Positions 1 through 61,579 of a stretch of 64,000 bases of DNA are shown piece by piece; position 1 is the first letter of the stretch; every line of letters begins with the position of its first letter. The notes under the pieces were generated by a model. The model was not told the origin of the DNA, searched no databases, and worked only from the letters and a program-made list of their open reading frames with translations. The stretch is from Russula earlei (taxonomy: Eukaryota; Basidiomycota; Agaricomycetes; Russulales; Russulaceae). A program made the translations under genes and the position numbers. Where the stretch lies: assembly GCA_025769875.1 (NCBI GenBank), contig JAGFNK010000061.1:100855-164854 (forward strand). Reading direction: 5' to 3'.

Positions 1-2822
1 AGATCAAGGCATGCGTCTCCACTCCTTTCCACTATGAAGACTCTCACCCGCATCCTCTTCCTGCCATCCTTTAGGCATGGTTCCAGAATAGCCGTGCTAA
101 AGAGAAACAAAAACAAGCCACTGCCAACAAGGTCCCCCCAGCCACCTCTCCATTGAGCTTCGACACGACTCCCCTTGCCATCGCCATCGATGTTGAGGTT
201 GAAAAATATGCTGATCCCATTCCTCCACCACCCGTCACGAAGGTCAAGCGCCAGAAGCCCCAACCGTCACCGAGGACTCCTCAAGATCCTTCAGGGAAAC
301 CCCCCCGCGCGGCGAGCACGCGCGGCCGGTACGACTGGACGAACACATCTACGATACGCAAGAGCGCGCGACTCGTCTCCGCGTCTGAGGATTTGTCGAG
401 GTCGAGCCGGGTCGTGCCCTTGCCGCGCACACAGCCCCCCAAGTCACCCGCGGACGACTCGCGCGATCAACAACAACCCCACGCCACCTCTACTCGTTCG
501 CCCGCAGAGGCTAGCCCATCCGTGTATGACCTCCGTCGTCCTCTTCCCATTCCCCCGTTCATTTCCCCGTACGAGCCATCAACTTCACCCTCTATCGCCT
601 CATCATCAATCCTGTCACAACCACCGGAAGGGTCTTCTTCTGGGACTCCAACTTCACAAGTCCTCCCATCAATCGACCCCGATTCTTCCGCAGAAAGCAC
701 ACCCTATATCGTCTCTGGAGCACATCCGGAGCCCCCGTCAACCACTTTTACAGAAGTACCTTCCGAGCTAATTACAGTCGTCGACTATGCCTCAACTCCT
801 CCCAAATCCCTCAGTCGTGCAGAGACTGAGCACGCTGCAATTGGGACCCCGCCAATTCAGCAGTCCGACAGCATTGAACAGCATGGTCAAGATGAACCAC
901 AGCTATCGACCAAGATGTCATCCCATCCTGACGAGGCATTTGTGGCCCCTATGATGTTCCCGCCTCTTAAGTACACTCTCAAGTACACGAGGAGGAAACC
1001 AAAGCTTGCTTGTCCTAATCCTGTGTTAAATAACCACGCCGTATCCCCCCCAGTGGTTATGGAGGCTCCCCCTGTGCTCGTGATGGTTGATAATGCAAGC
1101 AGTGCTGATACGACAATTCCCCAGAACAACTCTATAGATCCTCACCAGGAAGCTGTTGTTGCTCTCCCTGCCAGTAGCGGGTGCGTTTGTTACTTTGTAA
1201 AGATGGTGCTTGGACATGACCTCATTTGTAAGGGTCATGAGAGATCCATCTGCTAATCCATCCGAGGGTGAGCAACTTGTCTCGACAGCTCTCCTGGGAG
1301 ATCGAACCATTACCCCAACTTCTGAGTGAGACTCGTTTTCTCATGCGACGATTCCCAATGTGATGGCGTCCCTAGACCAACGTCGATTGGATCTAGTTTC
1401 AGCAACTCCCGTGATGCGTCCCCAATTGATGATCCCATTCCACCCATTGGTGAGGTTGGATCCGCTATGTGAGTCGCTCTTCCACCAATCACATCCAACT
1501 CATTCAATTGCACACTTGCAAGTCCTATTCCAAAATCATCTTCAGACGACTGTGCCGCAGGAGACAGCAACAAGTACTTAGAGTTCTTCGGCTATGACAC
1601 AGGCACAGAGTACGTGAACCAAATCCTCTAAAGAGGTCTTACTCATTTTTCATAGCGAGTGGCCTCCGGTTCTGCAACAACCTACAGCTTACGTCGAAAG
1701 TACTTCTGATCACAGTCAAACCTGGCCTGCAGAATCAGGTGCGATCCTTGTGTCGCAATGCGATGATCATGTGGGAATCGTGTCAGTGCATCGATTCGCA
1801 AGCATTGGGTGGCAAGAACATTTGTTACTAGATGGAACGCGCTACTTCTCGAACGCTACTCTTCACGTAGTCACGGACCTTGATTTGCACAAGTCTGAAG
1901 AGCTAGATGCGGTCACGAGGTTCCTCGATGGACCGGATACAGAAATTCTTCCTCCATCACAGTGGGAATTATGGCTCCGTGATGGGAATGAGTCAAGAAG
2001 GGGATTCATTCCGGTCAAAGCGTGGGTACACCACGGAGCACGGATGGTGGCGTCGAAGCATCCTGGATCAGACCTAGATGGACATGTAAATGAAGCAATT
2101 GATAGTAAGTCGATGAAATTTACGCATGCCAGTGTGGGTGTTGATGAATTTGCAGAGATGGAATCGGAATTTGAGTACTGGCAGTATGTGGTATCTCATC
2201 CGGTTCACGCTTTGCTGCCACCAGCAACCATTGCCGAAGCGGTCGAGATCCTCACGTGGATCTATAACTGTATGTTATGTGGCGTATCCTAATTGTTACC
2301 ATTTCTTTATGCTGTGTCAGGTTGGCTGGCACTATCGCCCCATCATTCTCAGCTCCCATTTAGTCAAGAAGAATGTCAGGAGTTGTTGACGCAACTCCGT
2401 TCTTTTAGTCGTGAGCCTCACTACAGTGAAATCTGACCCTTTCACGTACTTTCCATCTAGACACGTCTGCTGAGACAAAGTCCCTTGTTCGCACATGTGT
2501 TGTATCCACAGTACTTGCTCGCGTCGGTAAGTTTTTGGCCCGCTTTGGAGTTACTAGTCTTATAGAGTATCGTTCAGTTGCATGGCGGCAGGGTCGACAC
2601 TGGGACTGTGCCACATCTCAAGGATCGCGGCAAGGCAGCAATGATCCTTCAGATACCATTTCGCTTCCGTGTTCTGGGGAGGAGTTCACCGTCTTCTTTG
2701 TTTGTTCTGGTCTCCCCAACGTTTCCTGGAATGATCACATCATCATCAAAGTTTCAGCACGGAACATGGCGTACGCCGCGCTAGTTATCATTTCCTTTTC
2801 ATTAGGGCGCCTACTTGCCTGA
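1..2822 (+). CDS. Homeodomain (3' end) fused to Ser/Pro-rich, WW-like, tail-anchored protein; family copy A, 5'-partial
   Basis: The gene enters from the left edge. After an intron acceptor at 74, the frame starts with WFQNSRAKEKQK, the DNA-recognition helix 3 of a homeodomain (W48, F49, N51, R53 positions kept). If the preceding intron is 9-74 it is GC-AG, and the joined exons read IK/AWFQN. A basic, Ser/Pro-rich stretch follows, then from about 590 the part shared with the other family copies. Predicted exons 75-1180, 1233-1325, 1376-1468, 1523-1609, 1656-2104, 2156-2269, 2321-2410, 2461-2526 and 2566-2822 keep one open frame (784 codons). The WW-like core (WQEHLLLDGTRYFSN) lies near 1810-1850 and lacks the usual second Trp. 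The last residues form a hydrophobic helix ending GRLLA-stop, a tail anchor. The homeodomain join could be a gene fusion or a chance read-through. Family identity is firm; function is unknown. Confidence 0.7.
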
Positions 2823-3389
2823 TCTACAGTTAGAAATTCCTGGTTACGTGACGCGATGATAAAGAACGCCTACTCGGATTCTTCTGGCTGCTGTCATTCT
2901 CGGTCTCCCGGTGGCATTCATCATACTCCTTGGTATCACCCTGTTTCACGACTGATTTCTTTGACGGCCTTCAAGTTCTCCTTGGATGTATTTTTATCGT
3001 TTCAAAAATGTACAGATACAAGCCGTGTATCGACAATCCCATTTTGTACCATCGCAGAGAGGGACTATTAGTTGACATTGGAAAGGTGTGTTTATAGCCA
3101 ACCGGACTCTAACAAATACATGAAGGACCTATATAGGAGAGCCAGGGGATCGTACGTCCCGCTCACATGATTCCGCCGCTCGCGGGAATGTTCCTTACAG
3201 CGCACAGGGACGTGCAGTTACCGATCGTGTCGACGTGTGGAATGTTTGAAATGTCTATCAGTCCAATTGAAATATACGAGTACTGAGATTGAAACCTGAC
3301 AGCTCGGGATGGGGTCGAGACAACTAACACCTGACACTCGAATCGCATCGCCTACCTCTTATCGTCCTCATCTGTTCTCGTTCTCCTCG
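2823..3389. other. Spacer and likely promoter of ILEI gene 1
   Basis: No gene is supported here. The sequence is closely repeated at about 10460-10964, upstream of the second ILEI gene, so it is part of the duplicated unit. The block just before 3390 presumably carries the promoter. An in-frame ATG at 3309 is not conserved in the second copy, while the ATG at 3390 is, so I place the start at 3390. Confidence 0.6.
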
Positions 3390-6300
3390 ATGTCTTCTTT
3401 TCCGGTGTCTGTGAAGGCCACTACTAACAGCGAGGCAGCTTCGTTCGCCTATCCATCCCAATCCTCCAATCCTGTACCTACCAGGCCGGGCCTCAATGTT
3501 GTTTTCCTTGACTGTCATACAGGCAGTCTCATCTCCTTCAAGACTTTCGACATTCTTTTCGACTCCTCTGAATGGGATCGTTTTGCGTCCGCGATCGAGT
3601 CTGACACACTTTTCCCTAACACGTATGTCTTGATCGCCACCCAGCAAGGCCGTGCTGGAGTGGTGTCGAATATTACCGATCGTGGACGCCGTGCGATCCA
3701 TCTCTTGGGAGGATTCGCGTTCCAGAATGTTGATTGCGCAAAGATCACCGCCTGGGCCTTTGTTGGCCAGCATGGCGCAGGCATCGGTACCTCCCTCGAC
3801 AGCTTTTCATTCGACGCACGCTCGGCAGAGCTTTCTTCCATCGAGCTCACCGATATGCCGCCATCTTGTAGAACTCACGTCATTCGCGCTACTTCAAACG
3901 GCACTGGATATATCAGCGCACGGATTCTTTACGACAACGTGGAGTTTGTAGGGTCCGGCTCTAATGGGCTGAACGTCGTCGTCATCGACCCGGCTTCGGC
4001 CACCGTGCAACACGTTTCATCATTCGGCTCCTCTCCTTCAGACGCAAATGCGTTTGCTCAGCTCGTAGAATCCAAACCAGCAAATTGGATTTTCGCGGTA
4101 GCTTTTAAAGCATTCTCCCCCTCCCTTCTCTCTCCGCCCATCAAACGTGCGTTGGAAAGTATCGGCAGCAAGGTCGTGTCAGGCCCTGTCTCAAATGGAA
4201 TGTCATGGGTGGTAATTGGATCACGCACTTTCGATGATACGGGGGTCAGTGAAGTATCATCCCAAGGGCCAAGCAGCCAAGCGAACTATTACTTCGATGC
4301 CGATGCAGATCGTGAAGGACAAGCTAGCTTTATACTGGAGTGCCGAGGTGCCTACAATGTTAGTCTCGATATCGTTGTTGATGGATGTGTCTTGGAGTCG
4401 TTCAAGGCTGGCCCAAACTACAACCTTCGCATCGCGGCCATATCCCCTTATACAGGGATTGTTTGTGGTCACCAAGCCTACGATGTCAGGGAACTGAGTG
4501 ATCAGAAATCACTCACCGAATTCGTCGAACAGGTTCGGGTCTCTTAACTAGCATTATTCACCCATTGACATCCTTACAAGATCCCTCTCGGTTACTTGAC
4601 GGCGATTGTCTATCAGCCACCTGATGGATTCACTTTTCCCGCTGCGCTTGGCAAGCTCCTTTCTCTCATGAGTCAATTACCAATCGAACTTGTTCTTCCA
4701 GGAACTATGTATGGGCTGCTTTACCGCAAGGGTTCTGGCCCGGCAAGGTCATTCTATCGAAACATCAGCCAGTCCGCAGACGGTTGGAGTGGTGCGGACA
4801 CGTTTGCCTTAACGTGCCGCGTTTTTCTTACTCGGCGGCCTCCGATCTCACGGATCGAAGCATTTTCTGCTGGCTTTTTTGCGGGAAATCGTGCATATGT
4901 TACAATCGACATGCGCACCGTCGAGTTCAGCCGGGATAACCGCGGACTCAACGTCGTCGCGTTCAATGGATATGGGACGGTTGTGAACATCGCATCGTTC
5001 GATACTTGGGCTAATCAGACCGCAGCCGATCGTTTCGCTTCCTTGATCGAGGAACTACCTGCGGGCACAGGAGTGGCCGTCGTCATAGTCGACGAAGGCA
5101 CACATCGTCTAAATGGTCGTGCAATTCAAGCCATAAAGTCACTTGGAGGCTCCAAGTTGGGCAGTGTAGCCTATCGTGGCTCATACGCTCTGATTGGATG
5201 CAAAGGAAGGTCTGCAGGTTGCGTCGCGGAAGCCTTCAGTCCCTCTGGGTCACTTGGTGCTCTCGTGAAATCATACACTCCGGGCGCTGAGCCGGGCCCA
5301 TCTGACAAGGGCAACTGGCTTTCCATCTCGACATACTCGAGCTCACACAATAACCACATCCTTCTTGATGGCGTCGAGATAACGCCAGATACGACATTTG
5401 GACTAGGCATACAGCTCCTTGCGGTCGGCCAACAATATCCAGTGGTGGACGAGGTATTGGGCGATAATGTCGAGGGACTGATCGAGGCCATGCGTGAACA
5501 CACACAGACAGTATATGCCATGTATATACCTGGATCGTGCTCAGGTACACGAGCCGCTACTATTCTCAGAAGCTTCCTTGGCTCCACAAAGACGGACGAT
5601 CTTAACGGCAAAGGCAGGATTGTTGTGGGTGTACCGGGTGGCGGTTCAGGAAGTGCACTGGAACACATGTTTGTGGAGGAACCTGTCTCGATCTCGTTCT
5701 GGACTGGGCCATTTGTCTCTGCGACCACGAGTCACACTCGACCAAGGAGGGTCAAACGATTCCAGTGGGTGGTAGGACTTGGGGCGATAGGGGCGGTCGT
5801 CGGACTACTGGCGTATATCGGCTTATTTTTCTTTCAAGACTCAAAAGAGAAAGATAAACCTGCCCCAATTTCGGGCCCCACGGCCCCCACCACACCATCG
5901 ACCGCCGCACCCGAGGGGGTCACTGTTTCAAACCCAATCGATCCTCCGCCAAAAGACGTATCGAAGGTTGTTCGTCGAGGCCTGTTTATTGCCGTTGACT
6001 CTTGCCGTCAGATTACCGAGCCTGGCCGGGGTGGTGATCCCAAGGTGACCACCATCGGTGACTTCAAGGGAGCGGCCTATCCCAATGTCGAGAAGATACG
6101 GGCATTTTATGCCAATAAAGATGGCGGCACGTTCATGCAGAGCACGGTATTCCTCAACGACGACCCGAGCACTCCTGCGGCTCTGTGGCCTACTGTTGCG
6201 AACGTGCAAGAGCATGTACGACAACTTGTTCGAGACACCAAGGATGGCGAAGTCGCTCTTGTTCACATCTGGAGTCACGGGACTAGCGGGGGCCCATCGC

Positions 6301-6800
6301 TTCCAAGGGAAAAGCCGCCGCCGGGCGTCCGAAACCCGTATAACGACGCAGTCACCCTTGCCCGCACTGAGCTGCAGAGCATGATCGCCAATCTCTCCAC
6401 GCGGATCAACTTCACCTTCGTTTTCAATTGTTGTCATAGTGGCCGATGGCTTGGGCCTCAAGAACAAGTGCCTCGCGGGATCGCTCTCGCTGGGGCCCGG
6501 GAAGACAGGGCGTTATCGCTCAAGCTGACTTCCGATCCATTTGGGCTTCATAACCCGACCCTGTCGTTGCACTTTCTTTTGTCGCGCTGTAAAACGGGAC
6601 CCTTCCCGACGTATGAGGAAATACGCAAACAAATCGAAGACACCTTGAACAGATGGGTAAAACCGCTTCTCTTGGAACTGAAGGATGACGACGGAAACCG
6701 TTTGTACGATGACTCGACCGCCACTTTGTATATTCTCTTGCAATACAACCCTTCCATCACCGATCCGAAGAGACTTCGCTGGTTGGACGCTATTTCTTGA
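3390..6800 (+). CDS. Five ILEI/PANDER-like domains, one transmembrane helix and a caspase-like (C14) protease domain
   Basis: Two exons (3390-4532 and 4581-6800) are joined across a 48-nt phase-0 intron containing an in-frame TAA, giving 1120 residues. ILEI/PANDER (FAM3-type) units begin near residues 33, 190, 340, 502 and 655. Three start with GLNVV followed by a Ser/Thr-Phe turn, and several end in the G-S-x(n)-G pattern with a Trp/Tyr-bearing strand (for example YRGSYALIGCKG). The third spans the intron. A single hydrophobic helix lies at about 777-798 (VVGLGAIGAVVGLLAYIGLF). The C-terminal domain (about 850-1080) has the caspase/metacaspase signatures HIWSHGTSG (His about 947) and FVFNCCHSGRW (Cys about 999). 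The usual Asp before CCHSG is Asn. No N-terminal signal peptide is visible. Known: ILEI domains occur in vertebrate FAM3 cytokine-like proteins and C14 proteases drive proteolytic signalling. Inferred: the repeats sense or bind, and the membrane-held protease acts. The substrate is unknown. Confidence 0.8.
4533..4580 (+). other. 48-nt intron of ILEI gene 1
   Basis: The intron runs from GTTCGG to TTACAAG. It contains a stop codon in the reading frame and a TTGAC branch-like site. The flanking exons are in phase 0. The same intron (12108-12155) is present in the second copy, with 4 differences in 48 positions. A donor at 4539 (GTCTCT, 42 nt) would also keep the frame. Confidence 0.75.
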
Positions 6801-7631
6801 GAGAGGGGAGACGTGAGGGGGATCATTTCCCGAATTCCCTTTTGTCTGTTTGAATATGGTTGCGAGTGTGCGTGTGCGTGTGCGTATCCTTTTCCGTTTC
6901 TATATGCGAAATGTAGTACTACTAGTCAGCTTTCCCCGGAGCTTGTTCAACGCGTACGCTGGCACCACTGGCAATGAGCCACCACTACGCACCCCTCTCT
7001 GCGTCAGCCACCGACTTCTACGCGCCTCCGTCTTTAGTGACCCCTCCCCCAGAGGCGGCTACCTGTGCCTCACGATCTTCTGCCTCGCCTGCCCAACCCG
7101 GCCAGGGACAGTAGTACCTCCTTCGTTCACCACTAGTCCTCTACGTCAAGGCCAAATCGGTTCGCCCGTATATTCACTTCCTATGGTGAACGGCCAAAAC
7201 AATATCCCCTTGTCTTCGTGTTTCATATCTTGCACCCTTATGCTCCCCTTTGATCCCCTTCTGTATTTAACACCCTAGCTTCTTCTCAATGAAGGATGAT
7301 CCTTTTTCCTTTCTCATTCTCTGATTGCCTCAAGACATTCGGAAGTTCTCATCGCGTCCGCGTTACGTTCCCCGCTGGGCTTCCTCCTCCTCCCTTCTCT
7401 CTCTATCGGGTCAGGTAACAAACGTCCCGTGCGTCCCGACTGCGCTACAAGGCATCTGTAAAATGGATCTTGTTGAGATTCATGCTGGTGGCTCGAAAAA
7501 TTGAAGTCCTCATACCTCAAGATTTTCAATCTCCAATCGTGGGCTCTGCAAGAACATTTATCATGTCCTGATTGGGTGACTAGGGAGAGCAAATGTGAGC
7601 AAGAGCAAAACCAGGGAGCATGAGACACACT
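6801..7631. other. 3' flank of ILEI gene 1, no gene seen
   Basis: No credible coding region is seen. Around 6945-6985 is a block (core CTGGCACCACTGGCAATGAG) that recurs downstream of WW-family copies near 15860, 21565 and 25695. It therefore marks the boundary of a duplicated unit. The rest is pyrimidine-rich spacer and the 3' flank of the minus-strand pseudogene. Confidence 0.5.
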
Positions 7632-9476
7632 TCAAGGGGAATTGGACAGATAGCCGTTTCCGCCACTCGTGTCATTCCAACCCTTCGGTAAAAGCCATTG
7701 GGTCATCTCGTCCGAGCCAGGGTCTTGAGGACAGACGAGCACATGATGAATCTCGACAGTTGTCAACTTCTTCGCTAACGACGACCCAGCCACGTTCGTT
7801 TTTTGCTTCTTCCGTTGCGGTGACGAGCCTGATGAGCCAGAACTTGGCTTGTCTGTGACACACAGTGTCGCTTGACGGTCCGCATTGGTCTCATTGACCG
7901 TAAGCAGAGGGTATCAATGATCTTGCCAATCTTGGCATAGCCCTTCCGCGAACCCCGATGCGTCTTCGAAATGGTCATTTGTAGGACCCAGAGATGCATA
8001 GTGTTCGGGTTGTCGTCATGTGTAACGATGAACACATCGATGAGGGGGAAGTTGGGGGCAGAAGGTCTGTAGTACACATTGTGAGAGACTTGATTCGGCA
8101 AAACGGAAAACTCCCCCTTTCAGTTTGACCACCAACCAAGGGGTGGGGGATGACGATTGCGATGACCCAGCCGACTGGGAGACGAACTTGTGGGGATCAG
8201 AATGAAATTTCATCTCCCTCATTGGCTGACCATTGACACCCGCGATAATCTTCCTATGGGCATTGGCTTCGAAAACCCATGATGCAAGTGTTGCCCCTTG
8301 AGAAACAGATTTGAGATACAAGATGAGCTCGCGGTCGCGTTCTTCCTCATACTTCCGGAATTTGAGCATCACCGCCCCTCCTACCCAGACAGTCCTGAAG
8401 TCAATATCCCATTCCACCCCAAGTCCAATCTTGCGACGAGATTTTGTAACAATGAGGCAATGGGAGAACCGGTTCGTTAAGAGCTTATCGCGCTGCACGA
8501 CCATATGCAACACCTCATCGAGATCTTTAGGTGACTCGTCGAGTGCGGCCATGACGTGATCATGGACCTCTTCAAAATTATAAAGTACCGCTCGGAACAT
8601 GTCCCGGGCGACGTATCCAAAATACGTGACGGCGTTGTTCAGGATATCATTGATTGCTTTCTCAAGCTTTGGCGGATTTTCCCCATGAAGTGATTTGATA
8701 TATGAAAGGTGGAAGTAAACCAGATCCATATCGGTGGGACAGGCAGATGGGAAGGGAGCACGCCACAACTCCAAGTATTTCTTCAAATGAGTTTTGAAAT
8801 CTTCAAATGCAATATCCAGTTCTGAGAAACAAGTTGACAATTTCAAGGGAAAATAGACATCAAAAATTCTCTCACCAGCTCCTCAGTTCTTCAATAAACC
8901 AGAGTGGCAAGGTGGTTTAAAGTGGACCCCAATCCTTGTGCCAAGTAGAGTAATGTGCAGGGTTCAGAAATGGGGCCTGGATTGGGAAGCATAGGGGGGA
9001 ATCCACCACCAGTGGGATGGGAGAGGATGCATTAGGAATGTCAAAAAAAAACCACTGTTAGAATTTTCAGGAAGATCTTCTTCTCCATCTACAGGGCCCA
9101 AAAGCTTATAGACACTACCAAGGTAAAAGAGGATTGCTCTGTGCACATTAAGAATGAACAATATGTTTTGGTTGTCCTGCAAGAGGCAGACAAGCAGGTA
9201 CATGGGAAGATCATTTTACCTGGAGAGACTGTTTCTGCTTCTCACAGCAACGAGAGGTAACTGTGTGCTTACTGGGATTGGACTGGTAAAAATGATACCT
9301 CCATAGGGGTCGTGTACAAGGATCTTTTTGATGTGCAGAAAGACAAGGTCGCATATATCAAAAGGCTTCAGTCCCAGGTTAAAGTTAAAAATTCCGCGCC
9401 TCGTCTGCAAAGGCCTTCCAACGAGGGCGGGTTTTACGCCAACGGCCACAGGTCCACGTCCAGTTGTTAGGATCAA
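7632..9476 (-). pseudogene. Degenerate RHS/Crinkler-like protein (P-loop NTPase plus restriction-nuclease-fold C-terminus)
   Basis: Read on the minus strand, several frames join into one familiar architecture. From 9476 there is LVHDPYGGIIFTS, the lead-in to a P-loop, but the GxxGxGK(S/T) loop itself is scrambled and followed by a stop at about 9213. The frame resumes with YLLVCLLQDNQNILFIL. A 270-residue stretch from 8846 follows. Then, in a shifted frame, comes YYRPSAPNFPLID plus LWVLQMTISK, the PD-(D/E)xK-like nuclease core of fungal retrotransposon-hot-spot/CRN proteins. After another shift it ends VEIHHVLVCPQDP and a stop at 7632. One frame change coincides with a run of five C at 8113-8117; another lies near 7915. 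I call it a pseudogene because several independent breaks are present. Unrecognised introns could explain some of them. The family assignment rests on motif memory only. Confidence 0.55.
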
Positions 9477-9687
9477 TCACAGAAGCAAACAGTGTCAGTC
9501 CCGCCGACGGTTGTGGTGCGGACACGTGCCGCGTTCTATGTACTCTAATGAAAAATAAATAAATAAATTACATAAGTTGTATCGGCGTGATCCCCCTCCG
9601 CCAGCTCAACTTACCGACTTGCTCCCTCTGCTCCAAACCATGACTCACTTGCCAGTATTTAGCATATCTGATGCACATGCACCCTGA
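9477..9687. other. Short spacer at the 5' edge of the duplicated unit
   Basis: This short spacer contains an (AAAT/AATA)n run near 9550-9570. The duplicated WW-family sequence begins abruptly at about 9688, so the duplication breakpoint lies at its right end. Confidence 0.4.
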
Positions 9688-10461
9688 TCCCCCCCACGGA
9701 ACACGGGTGGTGGTGTCCGAGCATCCTGGATCAGACCTAGCGAGACATGTAAATGAAGGGATTGATCGTAAGTTTACGTGGGTGTTGATGATTTTGCAGA
9801 GATGGGATCGAAATTTCAGTACTGGAAGTATGTGGTGTCTCTTCCGGTTCACGCTTTGCTGCCACCAGAAACCATTTCCAAAGCCCTCACGTGAATTTAC
9901 AACTGTATGTTATATGGCGTATCCTAGTTGTTACCATTTCTTCATGCTGTGTCAGGTTGGCTGGCACCGTCGCCCCATCATTCTCAGCTGCCATTTAGTC
10001 AAGAAGAATGTCAGGAGTCATTGACGTAACTCCATTCTTTTTAGTCGTGAGGCTCACTACAGTGATATCTGGCGTTTTGACATACGTTCCATCCAGTCCC
10101 CAAAAAACGTCTGCTCAGACAAAGTTCTTTGTTTGCACATGTGCTGTATCTACAGTTCTTCTTAGAGTCAGTAAGCTTTTAGCCCCCTTCGAGCTACCCG
10201 TCTTATGGATCATCATTCAGTTCCATGGCGGCAGGTCGATGCTGGGACGGTGCGACCTTTCAAGGATCGCGGCAAAGTAGCAATAATCCTTCAGAGAGTA
10301 TTTCGCTTCCGCATTCTGGGGAGGAGCTCACCAAATTTTTTTGTTTGTTCTGGTCTCTAATGTTTCCTGGAATGATCACATCATCATCAAAGTTTCAACA
10401 CGGCAAATGGCGTACGCCGTGCTAGTGATATTTTCCTTTTCATTAGGGTGCCTACTTGCTT
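9688..10461 (+). pseudogene. 5'-truncated copy B of the WW/tail-anchor family
   Basis: Homology to copy A starts inside its WW exon (equivalent to about position 2030), so the Ser/Pro-rich part and the WW core are absent. The later exons, the PFSQEECQE-type segment and the tail-anchor helix (MAYAVLVIFSFSLGCLLA) are recognisable. A one-base deletion next to CATGGCGGCAGG (10223 region) breaks the last exon's frame relative to copy A. The stop after the tail anchor is lost (TGATCT in copy A, TGGTGT here). It sits upstream of ILEI gene 2 just as copy A sits upstream of ILEI gene 1, so the pair was duplicated together. Confidence 0.7.
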
Positions 10462-10964
10462 GGTGTGCTGTTCGAAATATCTGGTCACACAATGCGATGA
10501 TAAATAACGCTGACTCCGATTCCTCTGGCTGCTGTTATCCTCGGCTTCCGGGTGGTATCCATCACACTCCTTGGTATCGCCCTTGTTTTAAGTGTTACTG
10601 ATTTCTCTGACGGCCTTCATCTTTATCGTTTCACAATTTACAGATACAAGACGTGTATTGACAAACTTATTATATACCATCACATAGAAGGACTGGTAGG
10701 TGCCATCGGAAAGATGTGTTTATAGCCAGTCCGACTCTGACATATACATGATACAGGATCGTATGTCCGGCTCACGTGATTCTGCCGCTCGCGGGAATGT
10801 TCCCACAGGGACGTGTCGATTACCGATCATGTCGACGTGGGAATGAATCCAAATGAAGTGCTGAGATTGAAACCTGACGGCTCGTAGAGACAACTAATCT
10901 CGAATCGCATCGCCTACCACTTATCGGTGTCCTCGTCTATTCCCACCCACCCTCGTTCTCCTCA
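10462..10964. other. Duplicated spacer and promoter of ILEI gene 2
   Basis: This region is collinear with 2823-3389, with clearly more substitutions and small deletions than the following ILEI coding region shows. It ends at the ATG at 10965, in the same local context as the ATG at 3390. No gene of its own is seen. Confidence 0.6.
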
Positions 10965-13900
10965 ATGTCTTCTTTTCCGGTGTCTGTGAAGGCCACGACT
11001 AGCAGCGACGCAGCTTCGTTCGCCTATCCATCCCAATCCTCCAACCCTGTAACCACCAAGCCTGGCCTCAATGTCGTTTTCCTTGACTGTCATACAGGCA
11101 GTCTCATCTCTTTCAAGACTTTTGACATTCTTTCCGACTCCTCCGCATGGGATGATTTCGCGTCCGCGATCGAGTCTGACACACTTTTCCCTAACACATA
11201 TGTCTTGATTGCCACCCAGCAAGGCCGTGCTGGAGTGGTGTCGAATATTACCGATCGTGGACGCCGTGCGATCCATCTCTTGGGAGGATTCGCGTTCCAG
11301 AATGTTGATTGCGCAAAGATCACCGCCTGGGCCTTTGTTGGCCAGCATGGCGCAGGCATCGGTACCTCCCTCGATAGCTTTTCATTCGACGCACGCTCGG
11401 CAGAGCTTTCTTCCATCGAGCTCACCGATATGCCGCCATCTTGTAGAACCCACCTCATTAGCGCTACTTCAAATGGCACTGGATATATCAGCGCACGGAT
11501 TCTTTACGATAACGTGGAGTTTGTAGGATCCGGCTCTAATGGGCTGAACGTCGTCGTCATCAACCCGGCTTCGGCCACAGTGCAACACGTTTCATCATTC
11601 GGCTCCTCTCCTTCAGACGCAAATGCGTTTGCTCAGCTCGTAGAATCCAAACCAGCAAATTGGATTTTCGCGGTAGCTTTTAAAGCATTCTCCCCCTCCC
11701 TTCTCTCTCCGCCCATCAAACGTACGTTGGAAAGTATCGGCAGCAAAGTCGTGTCAGGCCCTGTCTCAAATGGAATGTCATGGGTGGTGATTGGATCACG
11801 CACTTTCGATGATACGGGGGTCAGTGAAGTATCATCCCAAGGGCCAAGCAGCCAAGCGAACTATTACTTCGATGCCGCTGCAGAACGTGAAGGACAAGCT
11901 AGCTTTATACTGGAGTGCCGAGGTGCCTACAATGTTAGTCTCGATATCGTTGTTGATGGATGTGTCTTGGAGTCGTTCAAGGCTGGCCCAAACTACAACC
12001 TTCGCATCGCGGCCATATCCCCTTATACAGGGATTGTTTGTGGTCACCAAGCCTACGATGTCAGGGAACTGAGTGATCAGAAATCACTCACCGAATTCGT
12101 CGAACAGGTTCGGGTCTCTTAATTCGCATTATTCATCCACTGACATCCTTACAAGATCCCTCTCGGTTACTTGACGGCGATTGTCTATCAGCCACCTAAT
12201 GGATTCACTTTTCCCGCTGCGCTTAGCAAGCTCCTTTCTCTCATGAGTCAATTACCAATCGAACTTGTTCTTCCCGGAACTATGTATGGGCTGCTTTACC
12301 GCAAGGGTTCTGGCCCGGCAAGGTCATTCTATCGAAACATCAGCCAGTCCGCAGACGGTTGGAGTGGTGCGGACACGTTCGCTCTAACGTGCCGCGTTTT
12401 CTTTACTCGTCGCCCTCCGATCTTACGGATCGAAGCATTTTCTGCTGGCTTTTTTGCGGGAAATCGTGCATATGTTACAATCGACATGCGCACTGTCGAG
12501 TTCAGCTGGGATAACCGCGGACTCAACGTCGTCGCGTTCAATGGATATGGGACGGTTGTGAACATCGCATCGTTCGATACCTGGGCTGAACAGACCGCAG
12601 CCGATCGTTTCGCTTCCTTGATCGAGGGACTGCCTGCGGGCACAGGAGTGGCCGTCGTCATAGTCGACGAAGGCACATATCGCCTAAATGATCGTGCAAT
12701 TCAGGCCATAAAGTCACTTGGAGGCTCCAAGTTGGGCAGTGTAGCCTTTCGGGGCTCATACGCTTTGATTGGATGCAAAGGAAGGTCTGCAGGCTGCGTC
12801 GCGGAAGCCTTCAGTCCCTCTGGGTCATTTGGTGCTCTCGTGAAATCATACACTCCAGGCGCTGAGCCGGGCCCATCTAACAAAGGCAACTGGCTTTCCA
12901 TCTCGACATACTCGAGCTCACATAATTATCACATCCTTCTTGATGGCGTCGAGATAACGCCAAATACAACATTTAAGCCAGGCATACAGCTCCTTGCGGT
13001 CGGCCAACAATATCCAGTGGTGGATGAGGTGTTGGACTCGGATGATAATGTCGAGGGACTGATCGAGGCCATGCGTGAACACGCACAAACGGTATATGCC
13101 ATGTATATTCCTGGATCGTGCTCAGGTACACGAGCCGCTACTAGTCTTGGAAGCTTCCTTGGCTCCACGAAGATGAACGATCTTAACGGCAGAGGCAGGC
13201 TTGTAGTGGGTATACCGGGTGGTGGTTCAGGAAGTGCATTGGAACACATGTTTGTGAAGGAATTTATCTCGATCTCGTTCTGGACTGGGTCTATGCCTTG
13301 GAAACTGTCTGGCCCTCCTACTGCTTCAGGTGATATACCAGAACCTACCATCACCGTCTCGTCATCTAGGCCGGCGCAACCGCCGAAGGGATCCACTGAG
13401 GGGGGGTTCGATCCTTTTGTACTGCCCACCGCTCAACCTACTGCCGAAGGATTATCGGTCTCCCCCGTGTCAGATAAAGTTCTTGTATCACCTCCGTATT
13501 CGGTGTTCCCTTCCGCTCTTGCAAGGAAACCCTCCAAGCCAAATCCAGCAACATCGGTCGATCCCGGCCCCCCTGTCTCATCGCCAGAATCCCTCGGTCT
13601 TGGCGAGATGGAGCACACTGCAGACGATGCCCTGCCAGATTGGCAATCCGATGGTATTGAATGGCATGGACAGGATCAGCACCAGCTGCCAATTGAGATA
13701 TTGTCCCACTTTGAGGAAGCATTTGTGGCTCCTATGATATTCCACCCTGATAAATACGTTTACAAGAGAACGTGTAGGAAACCCATGTCTGCTGGGTCCA
13801 ACCTAGTGTCCACCGATCATACATTATCGACTCCAATGGCTACAGAGTCTCTTCCGATAAAGGTTGACAATGCAAACGGCCCTTGTATGACAACTGCAAA

Positions 13901-15598
13901 GAACTCTACACAATCTCGCCAGGAAGGTGTCGTTGCGCTCCCTGCCAGTAGCGGGTGTGTTTCTTGCAATCTTGAGATGATACACGTTTATGACATCACC
14001 TATAAGGGATGCGTCACATCCATTTGATAGTCAATTCGAGGCCGTGCAACCTGTCCTAGAAGCTCGTCCCGTGGGTCAATTCGATATTCCAAACCTCCAG
14101 TGAGACAAGGTTTCCTGCTTTACGAGTACCACAATGACGGCGTTAACAGAGCAGCCTCAATTGGAACCAGTTCCAGCATCTTTTGGGATTGTGCAACAAT
14201 CGATATCCCCCTCCCGAGCAGTGAGGTTGGATTCGCTATGTAAGTCGCTCCTCTACCAATGAAGCGCAACTCGTTCAATTGCGTACCTCAAGGCCTGTTC
14301 AAACAGCACCTTCAGACTGCAGTGCCACAGGGAAAGGTAATGGATATCTATCTGGCGAGTTCATGGGGGATGACACAAGTACAGAGTACGTGAATCAAGT
14401 CTTACGAGTGGTGTCTTTCTCATTATTACTAGCGAATCTCATGTATTTCTACACCCGCCTACAAGTTCCCTCGAAATTACGCCCAATTACGAACAAACCC
14501 AGCGTGCCCAATCAGACACCATCTTTGCCTCGCAAAATGAGGGTCCTGTTGGACCCGTGCCAATTACTCGGTTCCGAGCAAGCGTTGAGTGGCAAGAATA
14601 TTTGTTACCAGATGGCACCCGCTACTTTTCGAATCCTACTCTCAACGTTGTAACGGATGTTGATCTGCGCGACATTGGAAAACTAAATGCAATCACAAGG
14701 TTTCTTAATGGACAAGATGCGGAGATTCTGAACCCACCAGAGTGGGAATTATGGCTCCGTAATGGGAATGAGTCAACGACAGAGACAGCATTTAGTCCAC
14801 TTATGGCCTGGGTACACCACGGATCACGGATGGCGGTGTTCGCACGTCCTGCATTAGATCCAGGGAATCCTATAAGCAACAATGTTGATAGTAAGTTGCG
14901 GTGGATCACTCAGCTTATTCTCACATTGATCATTCTGTAGAGATAGAATCGGAATATCAATACTGGTCGTTCGTCATGTCCCATCCTGTTCATGTCATGC
15001 TGCCATCAGAATCTGTTCACGAAGCGATCAATGTCCTCACGTGGTTCTATACCAGTCTGTTTACTTGCTAATCTGTTTCTCCCGTTCATCCATCTTGTGC
15101 CAGACCGGCTGCAACAGTCACCACACCCTTCCGCGCCGCCGTTTAGTCAGGAGGAATGTCAAGAGTTGTTGACGCAACTTCGTTCTTCTAGCGGTGAGCC
15201 CTCTCACAGCGATCTGGCCTCTTGACATATGTCCTACCCAGATATGTCTACCCTAGCTGTTGTTCGCACACGGGTTGTATCTTCAGTACTTGTTCGCGTT
15301 GGTAGGTTTTGGTTCATCTTCGAGTCACATCTCGTCGTCTTATTTAGATTGTTTAGTTGCATGGAGACAGGGTAGACAAGGGGACGGCGCGACATTTCAA
15401 GATCCCAGGCAAAGTAACAATGACCCCTCAGCTGGGATTTCACCTCCCCTTACTAGGGGTGAGTTCATCATTTCTTTCGTTTGTTCTGGTCTCCTTAACT
15501 TTTCCTGGAACGATCACATCGTCAAAGTCTCAGCACGGGAGGTGGCCTATGTAGTACTAGTGGCATTGGGCTTTGTATTAGGGCGCCTGCTTGCTTGA
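10965..15598 (+). CDS. Chimeric gene: five ILEI/PANDER-like domains fused to the Ser/Pro-WW-tail-anchor module (family copy C)
   Basis: The first 759 or so residues are almost identical to ILEI gene 1, including the 48-nt intron (12108-12155). At about 13289-13305 homology switches. The transmembrane and caspase part is absent, and the sequence continues in frame into the Ser/Pro-rich exon of a WW-family gene. Simple reading stops at 14027. The family intron 13955-14006 removes that stop, and exons 14007-14099, 14150-14239, 14293-14385, 14433-14890, 14941-15054, 15104-15193, 15242-15301 and 15348-15598 continue one open frame of 4191 nt (1396 residues). That frame carries a WW-like core (WQEYLLPDGTRYFSN) and a C-terminal helix ending GRLLA-stop. 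Splice sites were placed by comparison of four family copies. Conserved phases argue that the fusion is real and expressible. Without splicing at 13955 a 1004-residue soluble form would result. Function is unknown. Confidence 0.72.
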
Positions 15599-17676
15599 TC
15601 GTGGGTTAGGAGTGTGACCTGGTGATAATGCTGCCTCGGGGCGTCATTATCGTTAGTGCCCCACTGCTATTCATCAGATACAGATACCATGACACCGATG
15701 ACATTTCAGGTGTTGCGGGTTCCCTCGCCACGTCTCTGCCTCTACTTAACGCACCTTCCCCTTTGCATGCCGCGATTATGTGTGCCGATGCCAACAAGGT
15801 TCTAGGCTAGCAATATTTCAACAGGCCACTAGTATTGGAGAAACTCAGAGATCGCTCGACGCATGCACTGCCACTACTGACAAGGAGCCACCATGTGCTT
15901 GTGGCACCAACACAACACATACATACGAATGCCCCTCGTAGTGCTGGCTGGGGACAACCCGTCCTATCGAGAGACGAAGACGAGGGGGGGGCGGAGGAGA
16001 GGGTGCGAACTCGAAAGAAGGGAGAAGGGGATAGGGGCAGCCCGAGTAAGGGATAGTAAGTGGTCTCGAGGAGCGGGGAACACGAACGTGCCAATGCATG
16101 CAACTCCAGTGCAAGCCAGGAACCATCCGAACACGACCGCAGGATGACGCGCGCACGCACGCAGAAGTTAAACCGCAACCACCACTGGCAGGTCTAGGAA
16201 AGGGCAGCGCGCCGTGAATGCCGAGGATCGCTCATTTTCATGACCCAAGCACAATGAGACGCTGACGACACAATCAAAGGAGCGATGTTTTGCAAAGTAA
16301 GAAGGTTCCGTACTCAGGATGTACTCTAATGAAAAAAATAAAGTAGTTTACTCACTTATGATGTGCTCAACGTTGATGCGCTCTCAACGTGGTTCGCGAA
16401 CTCGCTAAAGGGTCCTGCATGATCATTTGTTGCCTTCATCTCACGCTACCAAGGTGATCTGACCCACAGTTCAAAAGGCCCAACATTACAAGAGTTCCGC
16501 TACTTCAAGCTTTAGTGCTTCATTGTGCCCCCGACCGCTCAAAGTGTGGGCTAAACCCTCGATCCGCTTCAAACACTGGGTTGGCTTTAGTTATATCCGA
16601 TCCAGAAGCTGCGTCCGAATAGTTCCTGTGCTAGATATACCAAATGAGGGCATGGTCATTTGGATCCGGTTGCCTTCTGAATCCCAGGATTAAGTGCAGG
16701 GGAACCAGATCACCCGTGGAGCAGCAACGGATGCACTACCAGGATATTTTGGCCTCGGTGCTCGGGGTCTCCTGCCTCCTCGCATTGCATTGCATCGCCT
16801 CCTCTCGACGAGAACGCGAAGCCAGTTGGGGACTGGCGGGAGTTGATATCATTGGCCCAATCTGCACCAACAAAACACCGTCAAAACATATACGGTCAGG
16901 CGAGGGCACTACCTCAAGCCCGAGCGGCGTAATCATCTCACAACACGCTACAAATCCCGGTCGTGGGTAATCCATCGACGGCCGAAGGCGCATTTTCCAT
17001 GCAGAAATCCTTGTCCCTGGCATTGAGCATCACGTAGAGCAGCGTGGGAGTGCCACAGATGATCATACGCGCTCATGACGGCGGCACATCGCTCTCGTTC
17101 TCCTTATATTATGGCCACGGAATCTGTCTGAAGCGCATTGAGCGTTGAAATGTAGTGTACAGCCTGAGGCCATCAATGGCCAAGACAGAGGCGGCTAAAT
17201 TGTGAGGCAGTGCCCCACCAGGCTCCGGCGTGCACGCCGCAATCTTGCATTGACGTCAAACTCGGACGGACGGCTACGTGGATGTGTAGAACGTCCGTCC
17301 GCGTGAGGCAGACCACTAAGGACCGTATGGGAAAGGCTGTTCATGAAGCACAAATCGCCGGAGCGAAGTTCCAGGTGGCGCGTCGTAAGCACGAGAAGTG
17401 GGGGAGGGTCACCCGAGAGCGCCAGTGTCACAAGTATGTCACGTCACCGCATTGATCACCACGTGGGCAGCCTGATGTTTGCCTGCTGACGGATGTCTGC
17501 CCAGTGCTGAGCTGAATATTCCAGTCGTTCAAAGTGGTGACACCCCCTGATATAAAAATCCGGCCCCGATTGTTCAATCCTCAAGTCAATTCCCATCCCC
17601 CAGCGTTCCCCTACACCATTTCACCAGCAATAGCTAACGCCCACCACTTCGTGGTCTCGGATCATTCGTTTACAGG
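15599..17676. other. Spacer with duplicated non-coding blocks
   Basis: No gene is supported. Near 15780-15900 is the unit-boundary block also found at 6945, 21565 and 25695. The stretch of about 16900-17450 is repeated, diverged, at about 22200-22720, in both cases 200-800 nt upstream of a WW-family gene, so it probably includes shared promoter sequence. Short open frames in this GC-rich stretch occur on both strands and do not match anything. Confidence 0.5.
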
Positions 17677-20600
17677 ATGTCTAAACCACAATCCCAGAGA
17701 TTCTCCCTTCGTGCATTGTTGAAGCGAAGGCCGACTCGTCTCAGTGATTCCATGTCGCCACAGCCGCTCCCCAAATCGTCAAACGACCCTCTCAGACTCC
17801 ACCCAAATACCCTTTCCCCAGAGTATGCCATGTCAAATCTCGTTCTCGTAGAGGATCATCGACTGATCTTAGCGGTTTCACAAGGCTGCTGCCGCTCTCC
17901 TTGTCGTCAACCAAGTCTCCCACTCCTATACATCCCCTTTCCCTTTCCTTACAGTATGCCTGCCGACTCCCGTAGATGACCTTCGGCTGATCTTAGCGGT
18001 TTCACAAGGCCGCCGTCAACCGAGTCTCTCCCACTCTCCCCAATAATCCCTACCCAAGAGTATGCCTGCCGGATTCTGTAGATGACCATCGACTGATATT
18101 AGCAGTTTAACAAGGTGGCCGTCAACCGAGTCTCTTACACTCTCAATTACGCCTATTCAAGAGTACGCCTGTCGAATTCTGTAAACGACCATCGACTGAT
18201 TTTAGCCTTTTTACAAGGATTCCGTTGCCCGAGTATCTCAGCGTCCCCCCAATTGACATACCAAAGAGTATGGCCGCCGAATCCCGTAGATGGCAATTGA
18301 CTGATCTTATCTGTTTCAAAAGGCCGCTGTCGCCCTCAAGTCGTCAACCGAGTCTCCCACACTCTCCCAAATTTCCATTGTCACAAGGTATGGCTGCCAA
18401 ATTCCGTAGACGACCATCGACTGATCTTTAAGGGTCACAAGGCTGTCACCGATCTCCCCCTCATCACACCCGAGTCTTTCCCCTGCCGTACGTATGCCTG
18501 CCGAATCGCGTAGATGACCATCAACTTGATCTTCGAGGATTCACTCACGGGCCGCCACCGTTCTTCCCCTCATCAACCGAGTCTTCCACACCCTCCCTTG
18601 TCATAACTGTATGCCTGCCGAATCGCGTAGATGATCATCAACTGATCTTCGAGGTTTCACAAGGCCGCCGTCAACCGAGTCTCTCCCACTCTCCCCAATT
18701 ACCCTTACCCAAGAGTATGCCTGCAGGATCCTGTGGATGATCATCGACTAATTTAGCCTTTTCCCCAGGCTGCCGTTGTCCGAGTCTCTCGGAGACTCCC
18801 CAATCGACCTTGCCAAAGAGTATGGCTGCCGAATCCCATAGATGACCATCGACTGATCTTATGTGTTTCACAACACTGCTATCCCCATTCAGATCGTCAA
18901 CCGAGTCTCTCAGGCTCTACCCAAATGCCCGTGGCCTAGAGCTTGCCATGCCGAGTCCCGTGCATGAACTCCCTCCCCGTAAAGCTGCTGAATCCATGCC
19001 AGAACCGTTGATACCGTCGACACTGTCTGGCTCTCCTACTTCTGCTCCGAGTGATACAGCAGATCCTCCAATCGCTGTCCTGTCGTCCAGGCTGGCACAA
19101 CTACCGGAGGAATCCTCTGAGAGGGGGTTCAATCCTTTTTTACAGCCCACTGCCGAACCCACTGCCCAAGAACTCCCAATCTCCCCCGAGCCAGATATAG
19201 TCCCTGTATCGCCTCCGCCTCCGGTGTCTAATTCTGCTCTTACAAGGAAACATTCTGAACCAGACCCAGTCTTGTCGGTCGACCCCACACCCCATGTCTC
19301 AGATCCTCCAGAATCCTTCAGTCTCGGCGAGATACAGCACGCCGCAGACGATGACGGCATTGAATGGCATGGACAGGATAAGCAACGGCTGCCGATCGAG
19401 ATATCATCTCGGCCAGAGGCCTTTGAGGCTCCTATGATGTTCCCCCCTCATAAATACGTTATCGAGAGAACGAGTAGGAACCTCGTGTCTACTTGTTCCA
19501 ATCTAGCATCCACTGTATCTGCTCCGATGGCCACGGAGGCTCCCCCAATAAAGGGTGACAATGTAAGTAGTGCTGGTACGACAACTTCGAAGAACTCTAT
19601 AGAATCTCGCCAGGGAGGTGTCGTCGCGCTCCCTGCCGGTAGCGGGTGTGTTTCTTGTAATCTTGGAGATGATGTTTGTTTATGACATCATCTAGCGTGC
19701 AACCTGTCCCAGAACCTCGCCCTGTAGAACAATTCAATATCCCAATCCCCCAGTGAGACAAGTATTCCTGCTCTACGAGTTCCACCATGACAACTTTAAC
19801 AGAGCAGTCTCAATTGGAACTAGTTCCAGCAACTTTTGGGACGGCGCCATAATCGATATACCCCTCCCACCCCCCAGTGAGGTTGGATTTCCTACGTAAG
19901 TTGCTCCTCTACCAATGAAATGCAACTCGTTCAATTGTGTAATCGAAGGCTTGTTCAAACAACGCCTTCAGGCCTCAGTTCCACGGGGAAAAATGGATAT
20001 TTATCTAGCGAGTTCATCGGGTATGACACAGGCGCAGAGTACGTGAACCGAATCGTACAAGTGGTGTCTTCCTCATTATCACTAGCGACTCGCACGCATA
20101 TCCACAACCGTCTACAAGTTCCCTCGAAATTACTTCTAACTACGAACAAGTCCAGCATACGCAATCAGTCACTAACTTTGCCTCGCAAAATGAGGATCCT
20201 ATTGGACCCTTGCCAATTCCTCGGTTCCGAGCCGCAAGCGCTGAGTGGCGAGAATACTTGTTACCAGATGGCACCCGCTACTTCTCGAACCTTACTCTCA
20301 AGATTACTACGGATGTTGATCTGCGCGATATTGAAAGATTAGACGCAGTCACAAGGTTTCTTAATGGTCGAGGTGTGGAGATTCTAACCCCACCAGAGTG
20401 GGAATTATGGCTCCGTAATGGGAGTGAGTCAACGACAGAATTTACTCCGCTGATGGCCTGGGTACACCACGGATCACGGATGGTACAATCTTGGTCGGAT
20501 ATGTCGACCCCGGCTGGACCAGCAAAGCCCATATTGGACTTCGTCTTCGCGCGTCCTGCATCAGATTCAAGGCATCCTATAGGCAAAGATGTTGATAGTA

Positions 20601-21314
20601 AATCTCGATGGACCACAGGTTATTCTCGTATTAATTATTTTCTGCAGAGATAGAATCGGAACATCAATACTGGTCGTTCGTGATGGCCCATCCTGTTCAT
20701 ATCACGCTCCCAGCAGAATCTGTTCACGAAGCGATCAATGTCCTCACGTGGTTTCATACCAGTCCGTTATTTACTTTTTAATCTCTCTAGTGTTCATTAA
20801 CCTCGTGTCAGGCCAGCCGCAACAGTCGCCACACCCTTCCCCGCCGCCGTTTAGTCAGGAGGAATGTCAAGAGTGGTTGACCCAGCTTCGTACTTTTAGC
20901 CGTGAGCCTTCAAGTTCACCACAGCGATCTGGCCTCTTGACATACGTCCTATCCAGACATGTCTACCCCAGCTGTGGTTCGCACACGTGTCGTATCTTCA
21001 GTGCTTTTTCGCATTGGTAAGTTTTGGCCCATCTTCGAGCAACTACTCGTAGTCTTATCGAGGATTATTTAGTCGCATGGAGACGGGGTCGACGACGGGA
21101 CTGCGCGACATTTCAAGATCCTCCCGAAAATAACAATGTTCCTTCAGCTGACATTTCGCTTCCTCGTACTAGGGGGGAGTTCACCATCTCTTTCGTTTGT
21201 TCTGGTCTCCCTAACTTTTCCTGGAGCGATCACATCGTCAAAGTCTCAGCACGGGAGGTGGCCTACGTAGTACTACTGATCGTGTGCTTTTTATTAGGGC
21301 GCCTGCTTGCGTGA
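17677..21314 (+). CDS. Ser/Pro-rich, WW-like, tail-anchored protein, family copy D, with an expanded 5' exon-intron array
   Basis: The start is taken at the ATG at 17677 (MSKPQSQRFS), matching the start context of copy E at 22868. The 5' part runs through a tandem array of intron-like and exon-like cassettes (17823-18941). It joins, in the same frame as the STESL repeat peptide, the main Ser/Pro-rich exon ending at 19645. Later exons: 19696-19752, 19803-19895, 19949-20038, 20086-20597, 20648-20761, then from 20812, with the last exon ending at 21314; phases match copies A and C. The WW-like core is WREYLLPDGTRYFSN, and the tail helix is VAYVVLLIVCFLLGRLLA. An additional short segment (about 20487-20545, QSWSDMSTPAGPAKPILD region) is present only in this copy. 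Exact 5' splicing is uncertain. Membrane anchoring by the C-terminal helix is inferred; the partner is unknown. Confidence 0.68.
17823..18941 (+). repeat. Tandem array of about ten exon-intron cassettes, 103-121 bp each
   Basis: Donor-like GTATGCC or GTACGCC starts lie at 17823, 17954, 18060, 18163, 18268, 18388, 18492, 18609, 18715 and 18820. The eleventh position (18941) has lost the GT. Each unit contains a 5'-splice-like GTATG, a CTGAT branch-like site inside CGACTGATCTTA, and an acceptor-like TTTCACAAG about 55-62 nt downstream. A short exon-like piece around GTCAACCGAGTCTCTCCC follows. The second to fourth exon-like pieces are 69, 51 and 48 nt, so including them keeps the frame and would add a P-S-T-E-S-L-rich peptide. 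Others (50 and 65 nt) would not. The array lies within family copy D. Confidence 0.75.
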
Positions 21315-22867
21315 TCGTGGGTTAGGGGTGCGACCTGGTCATAATATCGCGTCAGGCCATCATTATCAATAATGCCCCACTGCTATTCATCAGATACCAT
21401 GACACGGATGACGTTTCCAGTGTTGCGGGTTTTCTCGCCACCCTCCTCTTCGTCTCTACTTGACCCACCTCTTCACCTTGGCATGCCGCGGCCATGTACC
21501 CCGATGACCCACAAGGTTCTAGGCAAACAACCATTTCAAGGGCGCGAGTTTTGGAGATTGTTCGATGCGTACACTGGCACTACTGGCAACTAGCCACCGC
21601 GCACTAGCCACCACGCACTTGTGGCACCGAGATAGGAAGTGATACAACTATGCAATCATTACCATCTTCCGAATGATGCGTTGCTTACGACCATCGCCAG
21701 CCCACAGTTCTCTCTCCGGATGTCCGATGGTTCCAAACAGTGAGAACTGATGGCTCGAGCGAGGGTAAACGTAACCGACGTCTCCTTCCGTTTGGCATGT
21801 AGATACTTATAGTTGCAATAACATGGTAATCCATCATTCCGTCATCGACGAATCGGAACCAAGCCAAGTTACGGAACAATGAGCACATGCAGGACGAACG
21901 AACGGCATCGTCACCCAAAGCGGCTGCGAAGATCTGGATTGGTCAGTGCGAAGTCGCAAAGGTGGCACAGAAGTATAGTGAGATTGACATGCACGGGTCA
22001 GTTCAGAAGTGTGGCGCCAAAGTCGAGGGTGGGTGTGCGCCCCACTTGGGCTGCACCGCGCACGGCCAGGGGTTCGTTGTTCGTTGGCAGGCAAGGAAAG
22101 ACACACACAGACACCGACTCAGCAATGGAAACACTGTCGTCGGATTAGTTTCACCTCGCTTTGGCGTCAAGCACTGAAACGGAGAGAGCTTGCTTGAACT
22201 GGAAGGTGAGGCGAGGACACTACCCCAAGCCCGAGCGGCGTGATCATCTCGCAACATGCTACCCATGCCGGTCGTGGGCAACCCACTGATGAAAGGCGCA
22301 TTTCCCATTGGGAAGACCTTGTCCCTGACATACATTGAGCATCGCGCAGAGCAGCGTGGGAGTGCCACAGATCGTATGCTCTCATGACGGCGACTCATTC
22401 CCCATTATATTTTGGCTATGGAACGTGTCTGAAAAGCGAATTGAGTGTGGGATGCACCATACAGCCCGACGGCGAGGTCATGACGAAAACGGATGAATTG
22501 TGTGGCAGTGCCCCGGGCTCCGCCGTGCAATGCACGCGAGCTGGCATTGGCATAGGACTGCTAAGTGTGGGATGCAGTGTACAGCCTGAGATCATGACGA
22601 AAACGGATGAATTGTGTGGCAGTGCCCCGGGCTCGCCGTGCAGTGCACGCGAGCTGGCATTGGCGTCAAACTCTATATGGATGTGTGGAACGTCCGCGTG
22701 AAGCAGACACCTAAGGGCCGAGGGGAAGAAGTCAGTGTGTAACGAGTGGCGTTGCACTGCATTGGGCCTTTGTCCTGCTTCGCGTCACGTGCAACAACCG
22801 AACATTCAAAAAGTTTGATACTTCCGAAGTTCGTGGTCTGGAATTATTGGTTTACAATATTTACAGT
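21315..22867. other. Spacer with duplicated upstream blocks
   Basis: No gene is supported. It carries the unit-boundary block at about 21500-21620, a block near 21940-22080 that recurs diverged at about 26110-26220, and a block at 22200-22720 that matches about 16900-17450. The ATG of copy E follows at 22868. Confidence 0.5.
22445..22665. repeat. Two tandem copies of a 105-110-bp segment
   Basis: The segment from GTGTGGGATGCACC to GAGCTGGCATTGG is followed by a second, slightly shorter copy starting AGTGTGGGATGCAGT. Both contain GACGAAAACGGATGAATTGT. The duplication lies in the presumed promoter region of copy E. Confidence 0.8.
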
Positions 22868-41450: not shown

Positions 41451-41632
41451 ATGCCCGCCATCCGCACGCGCGACACGACCGCTCAGTGTGAGTCCTCCCT
41501 TGACCCCACCCTCCGACGCACCCTCCACTCACCTGTTCCTTCAAGCTCTCGAAGTGACCGTGGCTGCGCCCGACACTACCAACCCGACTACTGAATATCA
41601 TTTCTCCGACGCCGCGCGCCTTTTCCTTTCCC

Positions 41633-52076: not shown

Positions 52077-52183
52077 AATTGTTAAGATTCTCTTGTTCTC
52101 CTGACTGTCATCTGTTTTGCTGACTCACCTGTGATTACTCATATGTCTGGCTTAGTGATTGCTTACTGATCTTGATCATGGTC

Positions 52184-55875: not shown

Positions 55876-55887
55876 TAAGTCGAGCTT
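55876..55887 (+). promoter_or_regulatory. Self-primer binding site of E2
   Basis: TAAGTCGAGCTT directly follows the LTR and is the exact reverse complement of 55679-55690 (AAGCTCGACTTA). Compared with E1, the bases that differ in the site also differ, compensatingly, in the LTR partner. Confidence 0.7.
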
Positions 55888-61545: not shown

Positions 61546-61579
61546 CACGGCCATACGGGTTATAAAAGTCCAGCGAAAG

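Follow-up and report, generated by a model that had tools for sequence, protein, structure and literature searches.

In Russula earlei, the gene at positions 3390-6800 (+ strand) of the window, by which we mean the whole stretch of 64,000 nucleotides analyzed here, encodes in a single chain an array of interleukin-like EMT inducer (ILEI) units, one membrane helix, and a caspase-like domain. This layout, proposed earlier in a sequence-only reading of the same DNA, is borne out, and in its full form it was found in two agaricomycete orders, Russulales (R. earlei) and Agaricales (Panaeolus papilionaceus). The interpretation that we put forward, with somewhat less than even confidence, is that the ILEI array is the regulatory prodomain of a membrane-tethered, divergent metacaspase-like protease. 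The polypeptide would run from the FAM3/ILEI-fold array through the single membrane helix and a flexible linker to the C-terminal cysteine protease; the array would bind a ligand (glycan-like in the case of unit 4) or a partner and, once bound, would position or cluster the protease, which would be activated through proximity rather than calcium. Judging from the charges, the array would be cytosolic and the protease lumenal or exterior, with a predicted substrate preference other than Arg/Lys.

The gene consists of two exons, with an ATG at 3390 and a stop at 6798-6800, and its translation of 1120 amino acids is 100% identical, over the whole length, to P0001, the hypothetical protein F5148DRAFT_741899 of R. 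earlei (1147 amino acids), whose public model starts 27 codons further upstream, at ATG 3309. Exon 1 (3390-4532, +) contains ILEI units 1 and 2 and the beginning of unit 3, and exon 2 (4581-6800, +) carries the remainder of unit 3, units 4 and 5, the membrane helix, the linker, the C14-like domain, and the stop. The 48-nucleotide intron predicted between them (4533-4580, +) was confirmed, as it is bounded by GT and AG, would bring in an in-frame TAA if unspliced, is also removed in the public model, and differs between alleles (3 of 48 positions in this copy and 4 of 48 in the tandem copy described below) more than the exons do (0.4-1.3%). On sequence grounds, ATG 3390 is favored as the start over ATG 3309, since the allele on contig C1295 has a 10-base insertion at 3376, between the two ATGs, which leaves the MSSF start in frame and the part upstream of the insertion out of frame, and since the tandem copy, lying in a stop-to-stop frame from 10878, has no in-frame Met upstream of its start. 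A stop-to-stop frame of 743 codons (739 inside exon 2) spans unit 3, the hydrophobic segment, and the C14 part, so that the joining of the ILEI, helix, and C14 regions is independent of splicing. The unbroken frame of exon 2 and the occurrence of the same layout in another order led us to reject a gene-fusion artifact.

Few relatives were retrieved. The whole-length search, in which the 8000 candidates with the most shared words were scored, returned four proteins at E <= 0.001, and the search with the C14 region returned three at E <= 0.01 among 1880 scored candidates, namely, those of R. earlei and P. papilionaceus and P0002. The last is a metagenome protein, 56% identical over 66%, whose model is without the exon 1 part; the P. 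papilionaceus protein, P0004, is 33% identical over 100%. Shorter C14 relatives were sought with a C-terminal alignment (A2) in a length range that leaves out P0001, P0002, and P0004, and none was found at E <= 0.1 among the 8000 scored candidates with the most shared words. Because the whole-length and C14-region searches depend on common five-residue words and on protein length, the result suggests rarity, short of proving it. No bacterial or viral relative was confirmed among 152 matches in the genome_contigs set and 514 in the viral_contigs set, which were scanned with two short active-site peptide patterns that cover the C14 part and not the ILEI part.

The whole protein matched the Pfam ILEI model (PF15711) at 2.9e-49 in four stretches. 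When the units were searched singly, unit 1 (3390-3839, +; residues 1-150, including the N-terminal strands), unit 2 (3867-4289, +; residues 160-300), and unit 4 (4857-5282, +; residues 474-615) matched at 1.1e-11, 8e-10, and 5e-22, respectively, all above the 27-bit cutoff; unit 3 (4311-4817, +; residues 308-460, spanning the intron) gave 0.019 and 15.9 bits, below that cutoff, and unit 5 (5307-5732, +; residues 624-765) gave no match. Profile comparison linked units 1, 2, and 4, placed unit 3 at the borderline, and left unit 5 at noise. In a shuffle test, the score of unit 3 was reached by 1 of 100 shuffles against unit 4, by 4 of 100 against unit 2, and by 87 of 100 against unit 1. The whole Panaeolus protein likewise contains four ILEI stretches, and the pieces taken to be its third and fifth units showed no ILEI match. 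Structure comparison (VIA-align) of a full-length model of low confidence (pLDDT 39.4), built with three sequences, recovered a FAM3-type fold for unit 1, which resembles the POMGnT1 stem and FAM3, and for unit 4, the 50 rows listed covering these two units. The strand and helix order of units 3 and 5 is similar in the predicted model, again at low confidence. Thus, of the five related units originally described, units 1, 2, and 4 are firm modules, unit 3 is a probable one, and unit 5, for which sequence support was not obtained, is ILEI-like only in its spacing and in the secondary structure predicted for it.

In unit 4, residues R502, D552, and R580 are the equivalents of the GlcNAc triad of POMGnT1 (R129, D179, and R207), with the same spacing (50 and 78), and the triad equivalents also occur in unit 4 of P0002. 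A glycan-like ligand may therefore be envisaged for this unit, judging from the residues alone. In P. papilionaceus, the alignment shows only the last triad residue kept in unit 4, which implies that glycan binding is no property of the whole family. The ILEI-type domains whose fold the models of units 1 and 4 resemble, namely, those of the POMGnT1 stem, FAM3A-C, and TMEM2, belong to animal proteins, none of which, as far as seen, contains a protease; POMGnT1 is described with one such domain before its glycosyltransferase and Caenorhabditis elegans FAMP-1 with two.

The metacaspase-like C14 domain (5973-6797, +; residues 846-1120) presents a catalytic-type His947 in an SHG motif (6276-6278, +), aligned to H158 of TbMCA2, and a catalytic-type Cys999 in a CCHSG motif (6432-6434, +), aligned to the C213 position; the pair is invariant in all three proteins (P0001, P0002, and P0004). 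The assignment to caspases and metacaspases comes from profile and structure comparison, in which a caspase-type fold was found. Against our interpretation, the Foldseek alignments have low TM-scores (0.33-0.36 of the query) and high rmsd values (6.0-15.6) in the best 11 rows, and the Pfam C14 model (PF00656) gave no match at E <= 10, either for the translation of P0001 and for P0002 and P0004 or for their three C14 domains searched separately, a threshold to be read with the HMMER filters in mind, as these remove most matches above about 0.1. The two motifs noted in the sequence-only reading are there, and the Pfam C14 match by which it proposed to check the domain is not. In NCBIfam, only P0002 among the three proteins matched, to a caspase subfamily (0.0024), with 17.4 bits against a cutoff of 140. 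SUMO chains in the profile comparison, from 0.015 up, and DUF5108 (0.06), DUF1192 (0.25), and an HTH model (0.11) were taken as noise.

The positions of the S1 residues D95 and D211 of TbMCA2 are occupied by N/N/H and N/C/N, respectively, in P0001/P0002/P0004, D95 falling at a low-confidence edge of the alignment. At the equivalents of the calcium-site residues Asp189 and Asp190, none of the three proteins has Asp; the equivalent of D173, also of the calcium site, falls in a poorly aligned stretch, and C92 (S1) and D220 (calcium site) lie outside the alignment. We therefore use the term metacaspase-like, as the fold is of the metacaspase type and yet the canonical substrate and calcium features failed where they could be tested: by its aligned residues, the caspase part is diverged at S1 and calcium positions. 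Since the acidic S1 residues are gone, it should prefer substrates other than the Arg/Lys ones of metacaspases. Type I metacaspases (yeast Yca1, Trypanosoma brucei MCA2, and the Candida glabrata metacaspase; MEROPS C14B) share with the R. earlei protein the fold, the His/Cys pair, the HSG motif, and an N-terminal extension before the catalytic part; they differ in S1 residues D95, S156, and D211 and calcium residues D189 and D190, which the R. earlei protein does not keep, and in the extension itself, which is here the ILEI array plus membrane helix and in type I metacaspases a region rich in proline, to which a zinc finger may be added (PMC13304501). Fungal metacaspases are described as calcium dependent and Lys/Arg specific (PMC9622860, PMC12914765). 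Contigs C433 and C124 of R. earlei both carry another C14-type protein, whose open frame has 657 codons and whose C-terminal part is long.

Across the 66.6 Mb and 1374 contigs of the R. earlei assembly, ILEI matches number 12; they fall at two loci on the present contig and on two further contigs, C1295 and C1301. The latter, of about 11 kb each, are 98.9% identical to window positions 1-8903 and 9354-17466 and apparently represent, from their sequence, the other haplotype. Between alleles of copy 1, synonymous and nonsynonymous substitutions number 3 and 7 in exon 1, 8 and 7 in the ILEI part of exon 2, and 3 and 7 in the helix-C14 part; there is no sign of a synonymous skew in these counts, and no constraint is visible at that scale. 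In the helix/C14 part, C1295 also carries four insertions of one base each. Besides the 10-base insertion at 3376, no indels occur in window 1-5705, and nine single-base indels occur from 5780 on, five of them noncoding, where only 2 substitutions are found in 2.1 kb. As they crowd towards the contig end, with five in noncoding DNA amid so few substitutions, they are probably sequence errors.

The second locus is a tandem copy (10965-13289, +; intron 12108-12155) in which all five units are present and the helix and C14 domain are missing; it ends after SISFWTG and continues in frame into a different tail (window 10965-14027). Over 756 codons, copies 1 and 2 differ by a dS of 0.098 and a dN of 0.027, a ratio of 0.27 in this one pairwise estimate. 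A public protein, P0003, carries a fused tail of this kind. As a guess, the truncated copy could be a decoy or inhibitor, acting through a common ligand or by pairing with the full-length array, and this adjoining copy without protease offers a natural comparison.

It might be supposed that the C14 region has become a pseudoenzyme, or is a domain in decay that is retained as a scaffold, given the loss of S1 and of two calcium-site residues, its absence from the tandem copy, and the C1295 insertions and allele changes without synonymous skew. Relative to P0002, moreover, the C14 domain (56%, 141/250) is less conserved than units 3 and 4 (67% and 72%) and near unit 5 (53%). Between the two orders, however, the ranking is reversed, with the C14 domain as the best conserved part (50%, 120/239, against 32-39% for the units); the His/Cys pair is invariant in all three proteins, and the C1295 indels look like sequence errors towards a contig end. 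We regard a dead domain as decidedly improbable.

The tail of copy 2 has relatives at 18846-19685 and 22715-23812; the repeated tail family as a whole occupies 75-1253, 13345-14027, 18846-19685, and 22715-23812, and its first member comes after an exon with a homeodomain (PF00046, 6.4e-8), which lies immediately outside the window on the upstream side. Alternating with the tails is a second family that has a EYLLPDGTRYFSN-like motif (1618-2292, 14374-14937, 20027-20650, and 24162-24926); the members tested (75-1253, 22715-23812, and 24162-24926) had no Pfam match at E <= 0.1. Further along lie two HMG-box-type genes, one at 27520-29361 (-; PF00505 at 1.4e-6) and one at 41558-43131 (+; read by eye from open frames), an inverted repeat of 411 bases and 95% identity (49177-49587 and 51668-52078), and, at 52864-62296, open frames that by eye resemble a gypsy-type LTR retrotransposon (zinc knuckle, reverse transcriptase, and integrase). 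No partner gene was recognized among these partly annotated neighbors.

The single hydrophobic helix of the earlier reading was found again as a predicted transmembrane helix (5766-5834, +; residues 777-799), with RPRRVKR on its N-side and, on its C-side, a linker (5835-5972, +; residues 800-845) rich in Pro, Thr, Ser, and Lys. The net charge of the 15 residues on the N-side is +5, +5, and +3 in P0001, P0002, and P0004, and that of the C-side is 0, -1, and -2, so that in all three proteins it is the ILEI side that is positively charged. The positively charged flank of a membrane helix is cytosolic under the positive-inside rule, which, applied to these flanks, suggests that the helix is N-in, with a cytosolic array and the protease on the far side (lumen or exterior). 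The full-length models P0001 and P0004 are without a hydrophobic N-terminal segment by Kyte-Doolittle hydropathy only, and this, together with the charges, disfavors, as far as the sequences tell, the usual picture of ILEI outside and protease inside. Two N-glycosylation sequons (NLS and NFT), located within and ahead of the strand that leads up to the Cys, are invariant in the three proteins; lying in the C14 core, they make a lumenal protease awkward.

The sequons thus speak for a cell-surface receptor-caspase, in which an exported ILEI array would sense an external ligand and a cytosolic protease would trigger cell death or incompatibility. POMGnT1 is lumenal. ILEI domains elsewhere are secreted or lumenal, FAM3C being a secreted example, and a cyanobacterial metacaspase with an extracellular CHASE2 receptor domain has been predicted (PMC3501461). 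The N-termini and flank charges just described argue against such a receptor, as does the fact that neither a partner gene nor a gasdermin was recognized: PF04598 had no match in the R. earlei genome at E <= 1, the power of this model on fungal gasdermins being uncertain; a control over 14 genomes gave one match, below the cutoff, in Escherichia coli. We consider the receptor unlikely, and nothing was found in favor of the self-recognition or cell death role once suggested for this protein; a sensor-effector role, based on its domains, is plausible.

Proteases of clan CD, among them GPI8 and legumain, can be lumenal. The N-in charge pattern would accordingly also suit a secretory-pathway processing enzyme, a membrane protease of type II that would cleave other proteins in the lumen and use the cytosolic array as adaptor. 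The few relatives found are a poor fit to a housekeeping role, and the sequons in the C14 core count against it as well; we consider this enzyme, too, unlikely.

No description of an ILEI-caspase fusion was found among the literature matches listed (titles and abstract starts), and no article was found on PF15711, on a fungal interleukin-like EMT inducer domain, or on the genome of R. earlei; one article that has metacaspase and an ILEI term together (PMC12258588) is, by its title, a human-cell study. The nearest precedent seen is the predicted cyanobacterial metacaspase-CHASE2 (PMC3501461): such prokaryotic proteins also combine a caspase-type and a sensor-type domain in one chain with transmembrane helices, and differ from the R. 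earlei protein in sensor fold, domain order, and kingdom.

It is doubtful, but conceivable, that these proteins form a new eukaryotic class of sensor-proteases, in which mushrooms would use a membrane metacaspase of altered specificity, gated by a glycan or another ligand and independent of calcium, to recognize other hyphae or microbes. It has yet to be settled which proteases are responsible for cell death and self-recognition in fungi. If our interpretation is true, fungi would possess a single-chain sensor-protease, and the ILEI fold would be used beyond the animal proteins studied so far.
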